DNA of 64,000 bases from Melioribacteraceae bacterium (lineage in GTDB: Bacteria > Bacteroidota > Ignavibacteria > Ignavibacteriales > Melioribacteraceae). The notes under the pieces are model-generated. The model had not been told where the DNA came from and made no database searches. It saw only the letters and a list, made by a program, of their open reading frames with translations. The position numbers were made by a program, and so were the translations under genes. The stretch spans positions 1 through 64,000 of the forward strand of contig JANQIV010000112.1 in NCBI GenBank assembly GCA_028282005.1, given 5' to 3'. Positions within the stretch are counted from its first letter, which is position 1; each line of letters starts with the position of its first letter. Shown here piece by piece: positions 57,955-64,000 of this stretch.

Positions 57955-58797
57955 TTGAGAAAAGAAACTACCTACAATCCGGAATCACAACTAAAACGGC
58001 CCAAACAATTTATCCTCAGCTTTCTTAATGATTTACAATCCTCTAGTGAACTTGGCTACAGATTGTTTTTGAGAAACCTTCGCTCACAGTACCGCCAATC
58101 ATTACTGGGTTATATTTGGATTTTCGTCCCTCCCACAGCCACTGCCTTAATATGGATAATATTGAATCAGTCCAAAATTATAAATGTGGGTGAAACCCAA
58201 CTCCCTTACCCGGTTTATGTTTTTACCGGAACGATGATCTGGCAAAGTTTTATTGATGCAATCCGGAACCCGCTAAAACAAATCAACAGTTCAAAATCTA
58301 TAATGAGCAAAATTAATGTCCCTTGGGAAAGTTTTTTGTTTTCTGGTTTTGCAGAAGTAATATTCAATTTTGCAGTCAGGCTTGCAATATTGTTAATTAT
58401 TCTTCTGGTTTTTAGTGTACAAATCTCTTTTATGAGTTTTCTTTCCTTGTTAACTATACTAGCACTAATCCTGTTCGGGTTTTCAATAGGCTTGCTGGTA
58501 CTGCCCGTAGGTTCTTTATATCAAGATATTGAGAAAGGAATTCCGTTAGTAACTACTTTTTGGTTTTACTTAACACCGGTAGTGTATGTGTTACCTGAAT
58601 CCGGATTGCTGAAAACTTTTGCAAGTATCAACCCGGTAACACCGCTTATTGTTAGCTCAAGGGAACTTTTAACAGGATTCGAAGTGAGCCAACTCTTTCC
58701 AACTTTAGTTATCTCCGGGATAACAATTATTTTACTCACATTAGGTTTGTTATTTTGCAGAATTGCAAAACCTCATTTAATATCAAGAATCACTTAA
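57955..58797 (+). CDS. ABC-2 type polysaccharide export permease (TagG/Wzm-like)
   Basis: A 280-residue inner-membrane protein with six transmembrane segments. The amphipathic start GYRLFLRNLRSQYRQSLLGYIWIFVPP and the IINVGETQLPYPVYVFTGTMIWQSFIDA segment match the permeases that export O-antigen, teichoic acid or other polysaccharides. TTG at 57955 is the best start, with a purine-rich AAAGAAAGAA upstream; no ATG is near. The partner ATPase, normally next to it, is not in the window, so the system may be completed elsewhere. SGNH and sulfotransferase genes follow within 46 bases. Confidence 0.85.
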   Translation: MRKETTYNPESQLKRPKQFILSFLNDLQSSSELGYRLFLRNLRSQYRQSLLGYIWIFVPPTATALIWIILNQSKIINVGETQLPYPVYVFTGTMIWQSFIDAIRNPLKQINSSKSIMSKINVPWESFLFSGFAEVIFNFAVRLAILLIILLVFSVQISFMSFLSLLTILALILFGFSIGLLVLPVGSLYQDIEKGIPLVTTFWFYLTPVVYVLPESGLLKTFASINPVTPLIVSSRELLTGFEVSQLFPTLVISGITIILLTLGLLFCRIAKPHLISRIT

Positions 58798-58843
58798 ACA
58801 TGTTTTATCCTCGACTTTATTATTCATATTTCCTTTAGATATT

Positions 58844-60076
58844 ATGATTCCTAACGATTTAAAATCACTAAAAAAAATTTCTTCTCGTTTGAAAGTTGTT
58901 TTCAAGACTATTTCAATATCGTTAGGCGGAATTGTTTTTATAATACTTTTTCTAGAAATTTTTTTGAGAAGTGAGTATTCACAATACAATGTTTTTGGAC
59001 CTTTTGGTGATTTGCCGGAAAGATTAGTTCCAACAATAAATAGCAAAGGTTTTAGGGATGTTGATCATTCGTTTGATAAACCCGATAGTGTAGTTAGAGT
59101 TTTATTTTTAGGTGATTCTTTTACCTTTGGATTTAGTGTAGCAGACAATGAAGTATATACAAATATATTCGCTGAATTAGCGGGTCCCACAGTTGAAGTT
59201 ATAAATTTATCATGGCCAGGTTGGAACACAAAAAATCAACTGGACGTTTTGACAAATTGGGTAGGCTGGAATTATATCAATTTTATGTACTCGAATGATA
59301 CACTTTGGAATTACAGTATTCCGGATTTACTAAAGGAATATAATAATCGGGGCAAGAATTCATTGAAAAACGAGTTGGATTATTTAAAAGAACAATACAG
59401 AAAAAGTTCTGATAAAAGAATTTATGAATTGTATTCTAAATATGGTTTAAGTGGTACAGATTATTTGAGGAAGTTATTTCAATTGCAAAACGAATTAAGT
59501 ATTTCCTCTAAAACTGAGCCGTTGGGAATTTTATACAAACCGGATGTAGTAGTTATAGGTTTTGTATTAAACGATGTAATTCCAAATGAAGAACAGTTAT
59601 TAGCTAGAAATAATCTGCAAATCCCTTTTTTAATTGATCTTGATGTAATTAGATTTTTGAATCATAAACTCAATCGGTTACATATAAAATACATTGAACC
59701 CAAACCCTTTAGCAACACATTAAAAAGTTACTACGATTTAGAGAATAAAAACTGGAAAAATTACGAAGAAGTTTTAGTAAAATTAGCCGGTGTTCTTAAA
59801 GAAAATAACATTATTGGAATAGCAGTTCCATTAGTTACCGGATGCTGGGATGAAAGTACAAAATGGTACCGAATAATCAGAAATAAATTTGAAGCGGTTG
59901 GAATTAAAACGGTTGATTTATGCCCTTCATTTAATGAGAAATTTTCTACTGTTTCATGGAGTGAATTACAAGCGCTGCCGAACGATAGACACCCGGGACC
60001 GGAAGTTCATAAATTTTACGCAACTGAAATCTGGAAAAATTTGGAACCAATAGTTAAAAACTTACATAACAACTAA
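58844..60076 (+). CDS. membrane-anchored SGNH hydrolase-like protein, copy 1
   Basis: A 410-residue protein with one transmembrane anchor (about residues 26-42) and an extracytoplasmic SGNH domain. The catalytic blocks are LFLGDSFTFG with Ser92, INLSWPGWNT (Gly), GFVLNDV (Asn) and a C-terminal NDRHPGPEVH (Asp-His), so the esterase machinery looks intact. This domain type transfers or removes acyl groups on surface glycans. It is paralogous to the genes at 61020 and 62225; copy 3 is its closest relative over most of the length. It starts 46 bases after the export permease. Confidence 0.85.
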   Translation: MIPNDLKSLKKISSRLKVVFKTISISLGGIVFIILFLEIFLRSEYSQYNVFGPFGDLPERLVPTINSKGFRDVDHSFDKPDSVVRVLFLGDSFTFGFSVADNEVYTNIFAELAGPTVEVINLSWPGWNTKNQLDVLTNWVGWNYINFMYSNDTLWNYSIPDLLKEYNNRGKNSLKNELDYLKEQYRKSSDKRIYELYSKYGLSGTDYLRKLFQLQNELSISSKTEPLGILYKPDVVVIGFVLNDVIPNEEQLLARNNLQIPFLIDLDVIRFLNHKLNRLHIKYIEPKPFSNTLKSYYDLENKNWKNYEEVLVKLAGVLKENNIIGIAVPLVTGCWDESTKWYRIIRNKFEAVGIKTVDLCPSFNEKFSTVSWSELQALPNDRHPGPEVHKFYATEIWKNLEPIVKNLHNN

Positions 60077-60094
60077 TAATTATTTAGGTGAAGT

Positions 60095-61030
60095 TTGAAT
60101 TGTCTTTTACACATAGGTTTCTCTAAAGCCGGCTCATCTTTTCTTCAAGAATGGTTTAGTAAACACCCGGAAATTAACTATACTTATGTAACTTTTGATA
60201 GCACGGGTAAAATGTTAAACTTGGAAAAACCAATCCTTACAACTAACTATAATCTCAATGGAAAAGTTAATGTTTTTAGTAGAGAAGGAATAATAAGTTT
60301 CCCAGATCTTGCAAATAAAGGACTGATAGAATCGTGTTTGAAAAAATATCAGCCATATCAATTTGGTGATTATCTTGTTAAGAAAAAAGCATTGCAAGAA
60401 CATACATGCAATGAATTACATAATAAAATACCAGATTCAAAAATCCTAATTATAACAAGAGGATTTGAAAGTGTAATCTATTCTCTTTATTCTCAAGCAA
60501 TCAAAGGTGGTTTCCCAATAAATTTTGACGAATACTTAAATAAGCCTAAAAAAATATTATTGCTAAATTATGATTACAATTATTTGATAAACTTATATGT
60601 AGAAAAATTTAATAAAAAAAATGTAATAGTTTTACCTTATGAGTTATTAAGAGATAATCAGAATAATTTCATATCTATTGTTGAAAAATCACTTAATGTA
60701 AATCATTATGATATAAAAATAGGTAAAGTTAATCCCTCACTCTCTAAAGAAGAATTATTCTGGTATCCGGTTTTATCAAATATAATATTGAGTTTACCAG
60801 GAAAAAGAGGATCAATTTATAGGTCGGACTTCTACAAGAAATACAAAGATTATTTAAAGGAAAATAGGCTGAAGTCTATTGCTAAAGTCTTATCTCAACT
60901 TGTTCCATCTTCAAGAAAAAGTGATCAAATTCCTAAAGGATATTTAGATGAATTTAAGGGTAAGGCTGATATATTAAAGAATTACCCTTATTATGAGAAT
61001 TATCTGGGAGAATACTTGATTGATAATTGA
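60095..61030 (+). CDS. sulfotransferase-family protein
   Basis: A 311-residue cytoplasmic protein. It starts NCLLHIGFSKAGSSFLQEWFSKHP, the PAPS 5'-phosphosulfate-binding loop (GFSKAGSSF), and has SKILIITRGFESVIYSLYSQAIKGG, the 3'-phosphate-binding Arg-Ser region (here ITRGFESV). Such enzymes add sulfate to carbohydrates or other acceptors. TTG at 60095 is the start, set by AGGTGAAG just upstream. It lies between the first and second SGNH copies and overlaps the next gene by 11 bases, which suggests that sulfation and acylation of one glycan are linked; this is inference. Confidence 0.82.
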   Translation: MNCLLHIGFSKAGSSFLQEWFSKHPEINYTYVTFDSTGKMLNLEKPILTTNYNLNGKVNVFSREGIISFPDLANKGLIESCLKKYQPYQFGDYLVKKKALQEHTCNELHNKIPDSKILIITRGFESVIYSLYSQAIKGGFPINFDEYLNKPKKILLLNYDYNYLINLYVEKFNKKNVIVLPYELLRDNQNNFISIVEKSLNVNHYDIKIGKVNPSLSKEELFWYPVLSNIILSLPGKRGSIYRSDFYKKYKDYLKENRLKSIAKVLSQLVPSSRKSDQIPKGYLDEFKGKADILKNYPYYENYLGEYLIDN

Positions 61031-62228
61031 TGCTGTAAAAAGTTTAGACAAACAAAACAAGTTAAAGTCCCTTTCAAAAAAAATATTACTGGCTGTTACA
61101 TCGACTTTTTTAATATTTGTTATTTCAATGGTTATTCTGGAAATAATTTTACGAACCGAGTATTCTCAATATCATGTATTTGGTGTTTATGGAGAATTGC
61201 CAAAAGATCTGCAACCCAAAATAAATAGTAACGGTTTTAGGGATAGAGAACATAAATTTGAAAATCCCGATAGCCTTTTTAGAATAATAGTCTTAGGTGA
61301 CTCATTTACTTTTGGGCAGGGAGTTGCCGATGAAGAGTTATATGTTAACAAATTATCAAAGCTGGCCGGCAACAAATTTGAATTTATTAATTTATCAAGA
61401 ATGGGTTGGGGAACCGCGGACCAGTTAAACGTTATGGCCAAATGGCAGGGATGGGATAAAGAAGCACTTTTCCAAAGTCACATGTTAGATATCAATATCA
61501 ATGACTTTAATGACCTTAAAAACAAAGTTCCTCAAATAATCGAATCGTTCCAAAGTCAATCATTAATAAAGCAAAATTATTTATTGGCAAAAAGAAGGAA
61601 TAAAAAATTTGATAAAATTAAAGGTGAACTTTGGCAGAAATTGGAATCAGATACTTCCCAAATATCTTTTGGACTTAATTACAATCCCAAAATAGTTTTA
61701 ATCGGCCTGGTTGCAAATGATTTTATTGAAATCTCTGATTACGCTGGTTATTCAAAGAAAAAGAAAAAAAAGATTCCCTTAAAAGTAATACCTTTTGATT
61801 CAGATGCATTAAGATTCATGGTTAAAAATATAAACAAAATGTTTTTCTCTAAATCAATTTATAATGATTTCGATATTAATAAAGCCTTACAAAGTTGGGA
61901 AAAGAATGTCTTTGAGTTAGGTGAAGTTTTATTGGAGAATAATATTTTAGGAATTGTTGTTCCTCTAAATGACCGTTTACATCCCGATGCCAAATACGTA
62001 GCTGTACCAAAAATGTTAAAAGTCTTTGAAAAAGCCGGATTCAGTGTTATAGATATAAGAACAAAATACAGAAAAATTATTGACAAAAATGGATTCAAAA
62101 AATTAAAAGCATTGCCAAATGATGGTCATCCCGGGCCAGTTTTACATAGCTTCTATGCACAAGAAATTTGGAAAGAATTAAAATCCCATATAGAAAGATT
62201 ACAATCTATTAATCATCAGAGAAAATGA
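61020..62228 (+). CDS. membrane-anchored SGNH hydrolase-like protein, copy 2
   Basis: A 402-residue paralog of the gene at 58844. It has a transmembrane segment at about 22-42, then the SGNH domain with VLGDSFTFGQG (Ser95), INLSRMGWGT, GLVANDF and NDGHPGPVLH, so all four blocks are kept. It is the most divergent copy in the middle, with a lysine-rich insert (KKKKKKIPLK) at about residue 245. TTG at 61020 with GGGAG nine bases upstream is the start, inside the 3' end of the sulfotransferase gene. Its stop overlaps the next ATG by four bases. Confidence 0.85.
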   Translation: MIIDAVKSLDKQNKLKSLSKKILLAVTSTFLIFVISMVILEIILRTEYSQYHVFGVYGELPKDLQPKINSNGFRDREHKFENPDSLFRIIVLGDSFTFGQGVADEELYVNKLSKLAGNKFEFINLSRMGWGTADQLNVMAKWQGWDKEALFQSHMLDININDFNDLKNKVPQIIESFQSQSLIKQNYLLAKRRNKKFDKIKGELWQKLESDTSQISFGLNYNPKIVLIGLVANDFIEISDYAGYSKKKKKKIPLKVIPFDSDALRFMVKNINKMFFSKSIYNDFDINKALQSWEKNVFELGEVLLENNILGIVVPLNDRLHPDAKYVAVPKMLKVFEKAGFSVIDIRTKYRKIIDKNGFKKLKALPNDGHPGPVLHSFYAQEIWKELKSHIERLQSINHQRK

Positions 62229-63418
62229 AAAAGAAAATCACACTATCCATTTTTTCGTTTCTAATTATACTTTTTTTATTTACAACAATTTTCGAAATAT
62301 TTTTAAGAACAGAATATTCACAAATTCATGTGTTTGGGCCTTACGGTGATTTACCCGAAAGATTAGTCCCAACAATAAATAGCCAGGGCTTTCGTGATGT
62401 TGAACATACATTTGAAAAACCGGATAGTATAACTAGGATTTTATTCTTGGGTGACTCATTTACTTTTGGGCATGGAGTTGCTGATGAAGAAGTTTACACA
62501 AAAATAATAGACGAATTAGCAGGCCCTTCATTTGAAATTATTAATTTATCAAAACCAGGCTGGAATACTCAAGATCAATTAGATGTTTTAACAAATTGGC
62601 CTGGCTGGAATTATATTAATTTTCTTTACTATAATGATTCACTTTGGGAAAAAAGTAATGAAGATTTACTAGTCAATTATTATAAATGGAATAAATCTCA
62701 TACTTCTAGTACAGTTGACCTTTTGAGAGATCGGTACAAAAAAAGTAATCCCAAAAGAATATATGATTTTCAAAATAAGTTTGATTTGCTTCTCAATAAT
62801 AAGAACAAATTCACTGAATTTAAAAATTATTTAATTAAGTCAATAGAGACTAAACCCTTAGGACTGAGCTATAATCCGGATATAGTTGTATTTGGGTTTG
62901 TCTTAAATGATGTGCTTCCAAAGGAAGAAAGGTCGTTTCAAAATTTAAATTTCAATATAGGATTAAATTTAGACATAGAAAGATTTATAAGTTTTAGAAT
63001 GCGACAATTCAGAATTAGAAATAACTACATCCCTTCTCACTACAATAAAGTAAAAAAATTTTATAATCCGGAGAATAAGAATTGGATAAATTATGAAAAA
63101 ATTCTAAAAGAATTATCAGAAACTCTAAAAACAAATAATATAATTGGGATTGCCGTTCCATTGGTCACTAGCACAACTAAGGAGGAACTTGCAATGTATA
63201 ATATCATTCTTAACAAATTTGAAAAGTATGGATTTAGGACTATCGACCTGGCTCCATCATTTGACGAAAGATTTTCAGCTATTCCTTGGAGTGAGCTGAA
63301 AGCATTGCCAAATGATGGCCATCCCGGACCAATTGTACATAACTTCTATGCACAAGAAATCTGGAAAGAATTAAAACCAATTATTGACAGTACAAAAAGT
63401 TCCAAGTATAGATTATAA
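62225..63418 (+). CDS. membrane-anchored SGNH hydrolase-like protein, copy 3
   Basis: A 397-residue paralog with an N-terminal anchor (KITLSIFSFLIILFLFTTIF) and SGNH blocks LFLGDSFTFGHG (Ser79), INLSKPGWNT, GFVLNDV and NDGHPGPIVH. Most of its length resembles copy 1 (GDLPERLVPTINSQGFRDVEH, QLDVLTNWPGWNYINF, NNIIGIAVPLVT, PWSELKALPND). Its last about 25 codons are instead close to copy 2 at DNA level. It starts within an ATGA overlap with copy 2, so the two are coupled. A degenerate piece of a fourth copy follows the stop. Confidence 0.85.
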   Translation: MKKKITLSIFSFLIILFLFTTIFEIFLRTEYSQIHVFGPYGDLPERLVPTINSQGFRDVEHTFEKPDSITRILFLGDSFTFGHGVADEEVYTKIIDELAGPSFEIINLSKPGWNTQDQLDVLTNWPGWNYINFLYYNDSLWEKSNEDLLVNYYKWNKSHTSSTVDLLRDRYKKSNPKRIYDFQNKFDLLLNNKNKFTEFKNYLIKSIETKPLGLSYNPDIVVFGFVLNDVLPKEERSFQNLNFNIGLNLDIERFISFRMRQFRIRNNYIPSHYNKVKKFYNPENKNWINYEKILKELSETLKTNNIIGIAVPLVTSTTKEELAMYNIILNKFEKYGFRTIDLAPSFDERFSAIPWSELKALPNDGHPGPIVHNFYAQEIWKELKPIIDSTKSSKYRL

Positions 63419-63486
63419 TGGTTTTAGGGATAGAGCATAAATTTGAAAATCCTGAGCTTATTTAGAATAATAGTATGAGGCTGGTG
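63418..63486 (+). pseudogene. fossil fragment of a fourth SGNH copy
   Basis: From 63418 the DNA matches copy 2 from 61230 (GGTTTTAGGGATAGAG, then CATAAATTTGAAAATCC and TTTAGAATAATAGT) over about 68 bases, with two small deletions that break the frame. In copy 2 this region encodes the conserved NGFRDREHKFENP block. No intact copy follows. It is the leftover of a duplicated or recombined gene. Confidence 0.75.
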
Positions 63487-63551
63487 CAAATGCATGACAA
63501 TCCGGTACATAGGAAAAATTTAAAACAAATTGATTTTAGAAAGGACAAATA

Positions 63552-64000
63552 ATGAAAAAGCATAAAGTAGTACTTTTTCATCCCAAAACTTCAAGGCAAA
63601 AATATTATTTCCCGCTTGCTTTGTTACATATAGGTTCAATACTTGATCCAGAAAAATATGAAGTTGTTATAATAGATGAACAAGTTGAACAAAACTATAT
63701 TGAACTAGTTCGTTCTCATATTGACGATGCAGTTTGTTTAGGGGTTAGTGCCATAACAGGAAAATGTCTAAAACAAGCCATTAGAGCATCAGAGGAAGCA
63801 AAAGATAAAAATCCGAATATAAAAGTAATTTGGGGAGGCTGGCATGCTTCGCTTTTTTCTACAATGCTTCTAAAAGATGTACCAAGTATTGATTTAGTTG
63901 TGCAAGGACAGGGTGAAATAACCTTTAAAGAAACTATTGAGAGCATAGTAAAAAATGGAGGGTTTAAAAATATTAACGGTCTCATTTATAGAGAAGGTGA
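63552..64000 (+). CDS. B12-binding radical SAM protein, N-terminal part (3' truncated by window edge)
   Basis: ATG at 63552 (GGACAAATA upstream) opens a frame of 149 codons that runs off the window. The visible part is a cobalamin-binding-type domain: VVLFHPKTSRQKYYFPLALLHIGSILDPEKYEVVIIDEQ, VCLGVSAITGKCLKQAI, VIWGGWHASLF and DLVVQGQGEITFKETI. This is the usual N-terminal half of BchE-like radical SAM enzymes; the CxxxCxxC cluster would come next and is not visible. Many such enzymes methylate or rearrange sugars and lipids. Its link with the SGNH/sulfotransferase genes is positional. Confidence 0.8.
   Translation, partial: MKKHKVVLFHPKTSRQKYYFPLALLHIGSILDPEKYEVVIIDEQVEQNYIELVRSHIDDAVCLGVSAITGKCLKQAIRASEEAKDKNPNIKVIWGGWHASLFSTMLLKDVPSIDLVVQGQGEITFKETIESIVKNGGFKNINGLIYREG

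Follow-up and report, generated by a model that had tools for sequence, protein, structure and literature searches.

To our knowledge, few bacterial pathways have a class II cyclase that acts on the product of a UbiA enzyme. One bacterial case is MstE (PMC9401909), which belongs to the merosterol pathway, where UbiA and a single-domain class II cyclase are described as partners (PMC5618424; PMC9401909). Here we analyzed a stretch of 64,000 nucleotides from a Melioribacteraceae bacterium (the window), which spans positions 1-64,000 of contig JANQIV010000112.1 (C62; 91,435 bases, with the contig numbering continuing that of the window) in a genome of 4.09 Mb in 271 contigs. The window covers the first third of a block of 17.7 kb (57955-75667), in which every gene lies on the + strand and the gaps between genes range from -14 to 133 bases. 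We read this block, with the arguments for and against about evenly balanced, as a Wzm/Wzt glycan locus with a built-in cassette of three genes: UbiA, a monodomain class II cyclase and a second sulfotransferase (ST2). Its genes, their order and domains, the conserved catalytic residues and the recurrence of cyclase with UbiA in other families were observed directly. As a genome-specific locus for a glycan exported by an ABC transporter, it is of an ordinary kind, with unusual content. Like Wzm/Wzt loci for O-antigens and capsules, it has an ABC-2 permease, an ATPase with a Wzt_C-like tail and glycosyltransferases of families 2 and 4 (GT2 and GT4), all on one strand; unlike them, it has SGNH, sulfotransferase and radical SAM genes between Wzm and Wzt, and it also contains UbiA and a relative of terpene cyclases.

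The cyclase candidate, a protein of 358 residues, matches no Pfam family. It was found in 4 of 296 genomes of the phylum, its own included; the three other homologs (E 1e-9 to 3e-12) belong to three other families and are 24-25% identical to it over nearly the full length (23-24% when the four are aligned). The four share the motif P-x-D-x-D-x-T (alignment A3), and in the PDB their profile matched the drimenol synthases 9mhs (E 4.3e-15) and 9m7d (E 5e-14), squalene-hopene cyclase 1gsz (E 8.9e-10) and AstC (E 2e-4). With the model SQHop_cyclase_C, whose cut-off is 26.1 bits, the homolog at locus L043 scored just above the cut-off (27.3 bits) and the one at L044 just below it (25.8 bits). For AsDMS, a drimenol synthase, the central Asp of the DxDTT motif is reported to be essential (PMC9128629). 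The AsDMS mutants D331A, D331N, D333N and Y427F are described as inactive (PMC12365925); Y427 is the catalytic Tyr hydrogen-bonded to the acid. Residues D331, D333 and Y427 align with D110, D112 and Y236 of our candidate, all invariant in the four homologs; Y236 was aligned with chain residue Y417, which equals AsDMS Y427 when the DxDTT motif is used to set the numbering offset. Given the profile matches and this correspondence of residues, a single-domain class II cyclase that lacks the HAD part of AsDMS is the best reading of the protein: it has no HAD match in Pfam, and the profile aligns with the TC-beta part of the drimenol synthases only. With the HAD-TC-beta drimenol synthases (AsDMS, 9mhs) it shares a homologous TC-beta domain and the D-x-D and Tyr residues, and it differs from them by its single domain, its lack of a HAD phosphatase domain and its UbiA neighbour. 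Such an enzyme would carry out a protonation-initiated cyclization, a likely role for a protein that stands outside every Pfam family.

The neighbouring UbiA protein (PF01040, 38.9 bits, cut-off 34.2) carries two Asp-rich motifs, N70 D71 D74 D78 and D203 D207, which are invariant in the four homologs. Its best match in the PDB was chlorophyll synthase (E 2e-4), followed by DPPR synthase 8j8j (E 0.003). The genome has other matches to the UbiA family, three above the cut-off and one below; the cassette UbiA found no match in the three loci above the cut-off, with a threshold as loose as E 10. UbiA of one subfamily lies near the cyclase in all four close homologs, which represent four families, own genome included. 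The merosterol-type arrangement, UbiA beside a monodomain cyclase, is found here with a gap of 8 bases, and the two genes are near each other in genomes G170 (4-base overlap), G194 (about 250 bases, other strand) and G141 (5.3 kb), whose UbiA homologs matched the block UbiA with phmmer at E 8e-28 to 3e-33. These three genomes also have a GT4 of one kind, that of G170 matching those of G141 and G194 at E 6e-101 and 6e-80, respectively.

We counted the three cassette families across 395 genomes of the phylum, taken as one and the same draw for all three since sizes and handles recur. The cyclase profile (E 1e-5) was found in eight genomes: the four with the close form, G033 with an intermediate one, and three with matches in larger frames (G216, G087, G125). 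Across the order (164 genomes), only our genome and G033 were recovered, along with a single weak match in G087, and the close form was confined to our genome. The UbiA profile (E 1e-15) was found in six genomes: all four that carry the close cyclase and, besides these, G113 and G202. The chance of this co-occurrence (4/4 within 6/395) is 1.5e-8, or 1e-6 when our own genome is left out, under the assumption of independent genomes and with a UbiA profile that was built from cassette proteins and so flatters the link; the adjacency of the genes and the single-sequence UbiA matches are independent of that profile. The sulfotransferase profile (E 1e-15) was found in three genomes, our own (twice), G141 and, weakly, G295. 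It adjoins the cyclase in two of these, our own and G141, which are of different families and both hold a compact set of UbiA, single-domain cyclase and sulfotransferase; no cyclase or UbiA match was found in the 12-kb stretch of G295 that was covered. The distribution of the cassette is patchy, probably through transfer. In G141 a homolog of the block sulfotransferases (E 1e-44) stands directly beside the cyclase, and the row there (L043 9099-16460) reads cyclase, sulfotransferase, acyltransferase-P450 fusion, GT4, GT2 and UbiA, which looks like a cluster for a sulfated terpenoid metabolite. The relative in G033, also of a single domain and with a DLDDT motif, lies near radical SAM/SPASM and peptidase-ABC exporter genes (L061 1803-13677), a neighbourhood that looks by eye like a set for peptide maturation or a peptide natural product.

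These genes can be placed in a single scheme. GT2 and GT4 enzymes would assemble a chain in the cytoplasm, Wzm/Wzt would export it, with the Wzt tail possibly reading the chain end, and on its periplasmic side the three anchored SGNH proteins would add or remove acyl esters on the exported chain. UbiA would attach an isoprenoid to an acceptor. The cyclase would protonate the isoprenoid via its D-x-D motif and close rings, and one or both sulfotransferases would add sulfate from 3'-phosphoadenosine-5'-phosphosulfate (PAPS), this sulfation and the glycosyltransferases finishing the product in a merosterol-like logic inside a Wzm/Wzt locus. All reactions in this scheme are inferred, as are the acceptor and the relation of the terpenoid to the glycan, to which it may be attached or from which it may be separate; decoration of the exported glycan by the product is a guess favoured by the gene order. 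Of the new statements, the one most open to testing is that a single pathway may unite UbiA, the monodomain class II cyclase and a PAPS sulfotransferase. The three genes are small and directly expressible. More specifically, and quite doubtfully, the patchy unit may make a sulfated polycyclic (mero)terpenoid that is here joined to, capping or anchoring the glycan exported by Wzm/Wzt; if true, this would represent a novel type of decoration on a polysaccharide. Compared with the merosterol pathway, where MstE is likened by description only, the block has no recognised oxidative or aromatic-acceptor genes, and it adds sulfotransferases and lies within a glycan export locus. A 2017 review discusses the steps of prenylation, cyclization and sulfation for sulfated sponge meroterpenoids, for which such an enzyme set has been proposed but not found, and states in its section 15 that a biosynthetic pathway had yet to be identified for any sponge meroterpenoid, a group that includes the sulfated adociasulfates (PMC5618424). 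Among the titles and abstract openings of the open-access literature, we found no description of this gene combination.

Features of the block. Positions follow the contig numbering; positions in stretches L005 and L006 are given in brackets.
Feature	Position	Strand	Recognised by / remarks
Wzm, ABC-2 transporter permease	57955-58797	+	PF01061 (ABC2_membrane)
SGNH1, membrane-anchored SGNH/GDSL protein, 410 aa	58844-60076	+	catalytic blocks, N-terminal segment
ST1, PAPS-type sulfotransferase, 311 aa	60095-61030	+	PF13469 (Sulfotransfer_3)
SGNH2, membrane-anchored SGNH/GDSL protein, 402 aa	61020-62228	+	catalytic blocks, N-terminal segment
SGNH3, membrane-anchored SGNH/GDSL protein, 397 aa	62225-63418	+	catalytic blocks, predicted SGNH fold
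B12-binding radical SAM protein, 468 codons (149 inside the window)	63552-64958	+	PF02310 + PF04055
Remnant of a fourth SGNH gene (C-terminal)	64972-65085 (L005 12973-13086)	+	between B12 radical SAM and Wzt
Wzt, ABC ATPase with Wzt_C-like tail	65072-66319	+	PF00005
UbiA	66320-67378	+	PF01040
Single-domain class II cyclase candidate, 358 aa	67387-68463	+	four-member profile; no Pfam family
ST2, second sulfotransferase	68450-69391	+	Sulfotransfer_3 below cut-off; paralog of ST1
Second radical SAM protein, twitch type	69451-70818	+	NCBIfam 158.5 of 170 bits
Tandem GT4-GT4, one frame, 847 aa	70884-73427 (L005 18885 into L006 1428)	+	
GT4	73424-74656	+	
GT2	74660-75667	+	

The sequence-only reading of the window had proposed its last six genes, from 57955 on, as a locus that decorates an exported glycan. 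All six frames were confirmed on the + strand, and when the annotation was extended past 64000 the sixth was found to end at 64958 and the block to run on to 75667, with the cyclase/UbiA cassette wholly beyond the window. An exported glycan is borne out, and the block is supported as a Wzm/Wzt ABC-exported glycan locus. The permease scores 40.4 bits with PF01061 (cut-off 26.9), and its partner ATPase 80.4 bits with PF00005 (cut-off 25); the tail of the latter resembles Wzt_C below the cut-off (27.3 against 30.4 bits), and three glycosyltransferase genes follow Wzt, the first of them with two GT4 domains within one frame. With the NCBIfam model for the galactan exporter Wzm/RfbD, the permease stays far under the cut-off (55 against 380 bits). 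The sixth gene does encode a B12 radical SAM protein, as had been proposed: on the whole gene, both the B12-binding and the Radical_SAM domain are above cut-off. No NCBIfam equivalog comes near its own cut-off for this protein (best BchE, 135 of 481 bits), and so we propose no specific reaction. ST1 is a probable PAPS sulfotransferase: it passes the cut-off of PF13469 narrowly (28.2 bits, cut-off 27). PAPS can be supplied by the genome, which encodes an adenosine 5'-phosphosulfate (APS) kinase (PF01583, E 1.6e-68). ST1 and ST2 are 39% identical; a single-sequence structure model of ST1 had a mean predicted local distance difference test (pLDDT) of 36, too poor for a fold search.

Membrane-anchored SGNH proteins that act on a polymer outside the cytoplasm are known from MBOAT-SGNH pairs such as PatA/PatB; the alginate system is another such pair. 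In these pairs the acyl group is described as being handed from the MBOAT to its SGNH partner (PMC12148441). The three SGNH proteins of the block were likewise found to be intact and membrane-anchored, in line with the sequence-only reading. Each keeps the catalytic blocks (GDSFTFG, an ND block and a C-terminal D-x-H-P-G-P, with the Asp two residues ahead of the His; alignment A1) and has a single N-terminal hydrophobic segment, which together with the basic N-terminus suggests that the SGNH domains are periplasmic. All three match the GDSL/SGNH models of Pfam below cut-off only (SGNH1 with Lipase_GDSL_2, 29.7 against 32.9 bits), and they are not members of the nearest named families, LA_2486 and LA_2490 of NCBIfam (best 36.5 bits, cut-off 300). 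An AlphaFold model of SGNH3 built with 16 sequences (mean pLDDT 75, predicted template modelling score 0.73) has the SGNH fold. With Foldseek it gave 25 matches with E values of 0.001 or lower, annotated as thioesterases, GDSL lipases or carbohydrate esterases; TesA and acetylxylan esterases were matched, and PatB acetyltransferases came lower (E 0.003-0.004). In a second structure comparison, carbohydrate esterases and TesA were tied (Z about 16 over some 175 residues), CgnD gave a longer match (Z 18.6, but with a root-mean-square deviation of 6.2), and PatB was not among the 50 rows, an absence without weight. By the modelled fold and the Ser/Asn/His blocks, these proteins belong to the SGNH hydrolase superfamily, and the predicted fold fits an esterase and an acyltransferase alike.

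Unlike the MBOAT-SGNH systems, the block contains no MBOAT or acyltransferase-3 gene, so the SGNH proteins have no local acyl donor; with this and a fold that fits both kinds of enzyme, the claim of several ester groups on the glycan is unproven. Elsewhere in the genome we found two MBOAT matches (contigs C105 and C48) and one acyltransferase-3 match (contig C175). The MBOAT gene on C105 (L048 7201-10230) adjoins a GDSL-type protein of its own (32.8 bits, cut-off 32.9), and the two are likely a separate acyltransferase pair. Among the block proteins, SGNH2 and SGNH3 are 38 and 56% identical to SGNH1, and 43% to each other. Compared by codon blocks, the DNA of the three genes (58844-63418) is 61-80% identical in alignment columns 41-160 against 40-63% in columns 161-360, which may reflect either selection or gene conversion. 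The C-terminal remnant of a fourth gene indicates that the array has lost a copy.

Conservation of the six genes as a unit, on which the earlier proposal hinged, was not found. Of 296 phylum genomes, 3 gave a match to the profile built from the SGNH trio (E 1e-10), and SGNH3 alone was matched in 2 of 38 near relatives, own genome included in both counts. A wider contig scan with the SGNH proteins gave 15 distant loci, with best segments 26-43% identical. None of them matched Wzm, the sulfotransferases, the B12 radical SAM protein, UbiA or the cyclase at E 1e-4, an absence that weighs little given single-sequence queries (the tandem GT4 gene entered as two halves) and stretches of 6 to 21 kb. 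Glycosyltransferase matches were present in 6 of the 15 (L014, L016, L020, L021, L022, L023), and Wzt matches, such as any ABC ATPase would give, in L021 (E 2e-9) and L025 (E 2e-11); L024 and L027 had no match to any block protein, SGNH queries included. The relatives lie in mixed contexts. The one in G002 has glycan-type neighbours (WecG-type transferase, polysaccharide deacetylase, radical SAM), whereas those in G274 and G091 both adjoin a sigma-54 activator, joined in G274 by a Clp ATPase. These counts and contexts rule out the SGNH trio as a conserved unit, and since the trio is rare and its relatives are so placed, the six-gene unit is not conserved as such.

Several observations weigh against a built-in terpenoid cassette. 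The cyclase sequence on its own has no significant match in the PDB or Pfam, its assignment coming from the four-member profile, and the fourth position of its motif is Cys where AsDMS has Thr, varying as C/N/D/D across the four homologs. ST2 stays below the Sulfotransfer_3 cut-off (20.8 against 27 bits), the block has no recognisable gene for an acceptor or for isoprenoid supply, and the missing acyl donor counts against the scheme as well. The distant cyclase of G033 has no UbiA in the 14 kb covered, where the upstream side is cut short by the end of the contig. Moreover, the UbiA subfamily is found between GT4 and GT2 in G113 (L074 7832-11077) and beside GT2 in G202 (L075 6780-8731), in both cases without a cyclase match, so that UbiA may serve the glycosyltransferases instead. 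This last observation fits an ordinary, strain-specific O-antigen or capsule locus, in which UbiA would be a decaprenyl-phosphate phosphoribosyltransferase making a lipid-linked sugar donor and the cyclase-like protein a repurposed alpha/alpha barrel with no role in terpene chemistry. We regard this as possible, though less probable than the cassette. The weak match of the UbiA profile to DPPR synthase agrees with it, and a strain-specific locus predicts the absence of the close cyclase from all other genomes of the order; yet chlorophyll synthase is the better UbiA match, the P450 added to the cassette in G141 speaks against it, and the retention of D110, D112 and Y236 in all four homologs despite their low identity is hard to explain without catalysis.

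It is also conceivable, if unlikely, that two unrelated sets merely adjoin, a cluster for a sulfated, glycosylated meroterpenoid having been inserted between Wzt and the glycosyltransferases of a glycan export locus. The resemblance of G141, with its acyltransferase-P450 fusion, to a metabolite cluster would agree with this, as would the neighbourhoods of the cyclase/UbiA pair in G170, G141 and G194, in which no gene matches Wzm or the SGNH proteins. Against it, UbiA starts directly after Wzt with zero gap and the cyclase gene shares 14 bases with that of ST2, as if all were on one transcript, and the two halves are linked by paralogs, one (ST1) lying within the SGNH array and the other (ST2) next to the cyclase. 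We give a similarly low probability to the view of the sequence-only reading, a decoration unit centred on three SGNH acyl-ester enzymes and sulfation with the rest incidental: three intact genes and the remnant in one array, and acetylxylan esterases and, lower, PatB acetyltransferases among the Foldseek matches, speak for it, but the unit is not conserved and the block lacks an MBOAT or acyltransferase-3 partner.

As for the setting of the block, the gaps between the six window genes are, in order, 46, 18, -11, -4 and 133 bases. Searches for Rfam families (window, L005 and L006) and tRNAs (window) found none. A scan of L005 gave numbers near those in shuffled sequences for promoters (82 against 77.7) and terminators (9 against 6.4). 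Upstream of the block are an epimerase gene (54936), a NUDIX-type gene (55957; type judged by eye) and, on the opposite strand, an alpha/beta hydrolase; downstream is a peptidase judged by eye to be of the prolyl-oligopeptidase type. The G+C content of the block is 31.2%, compared to 32.9 and 34.9% in its flanks.

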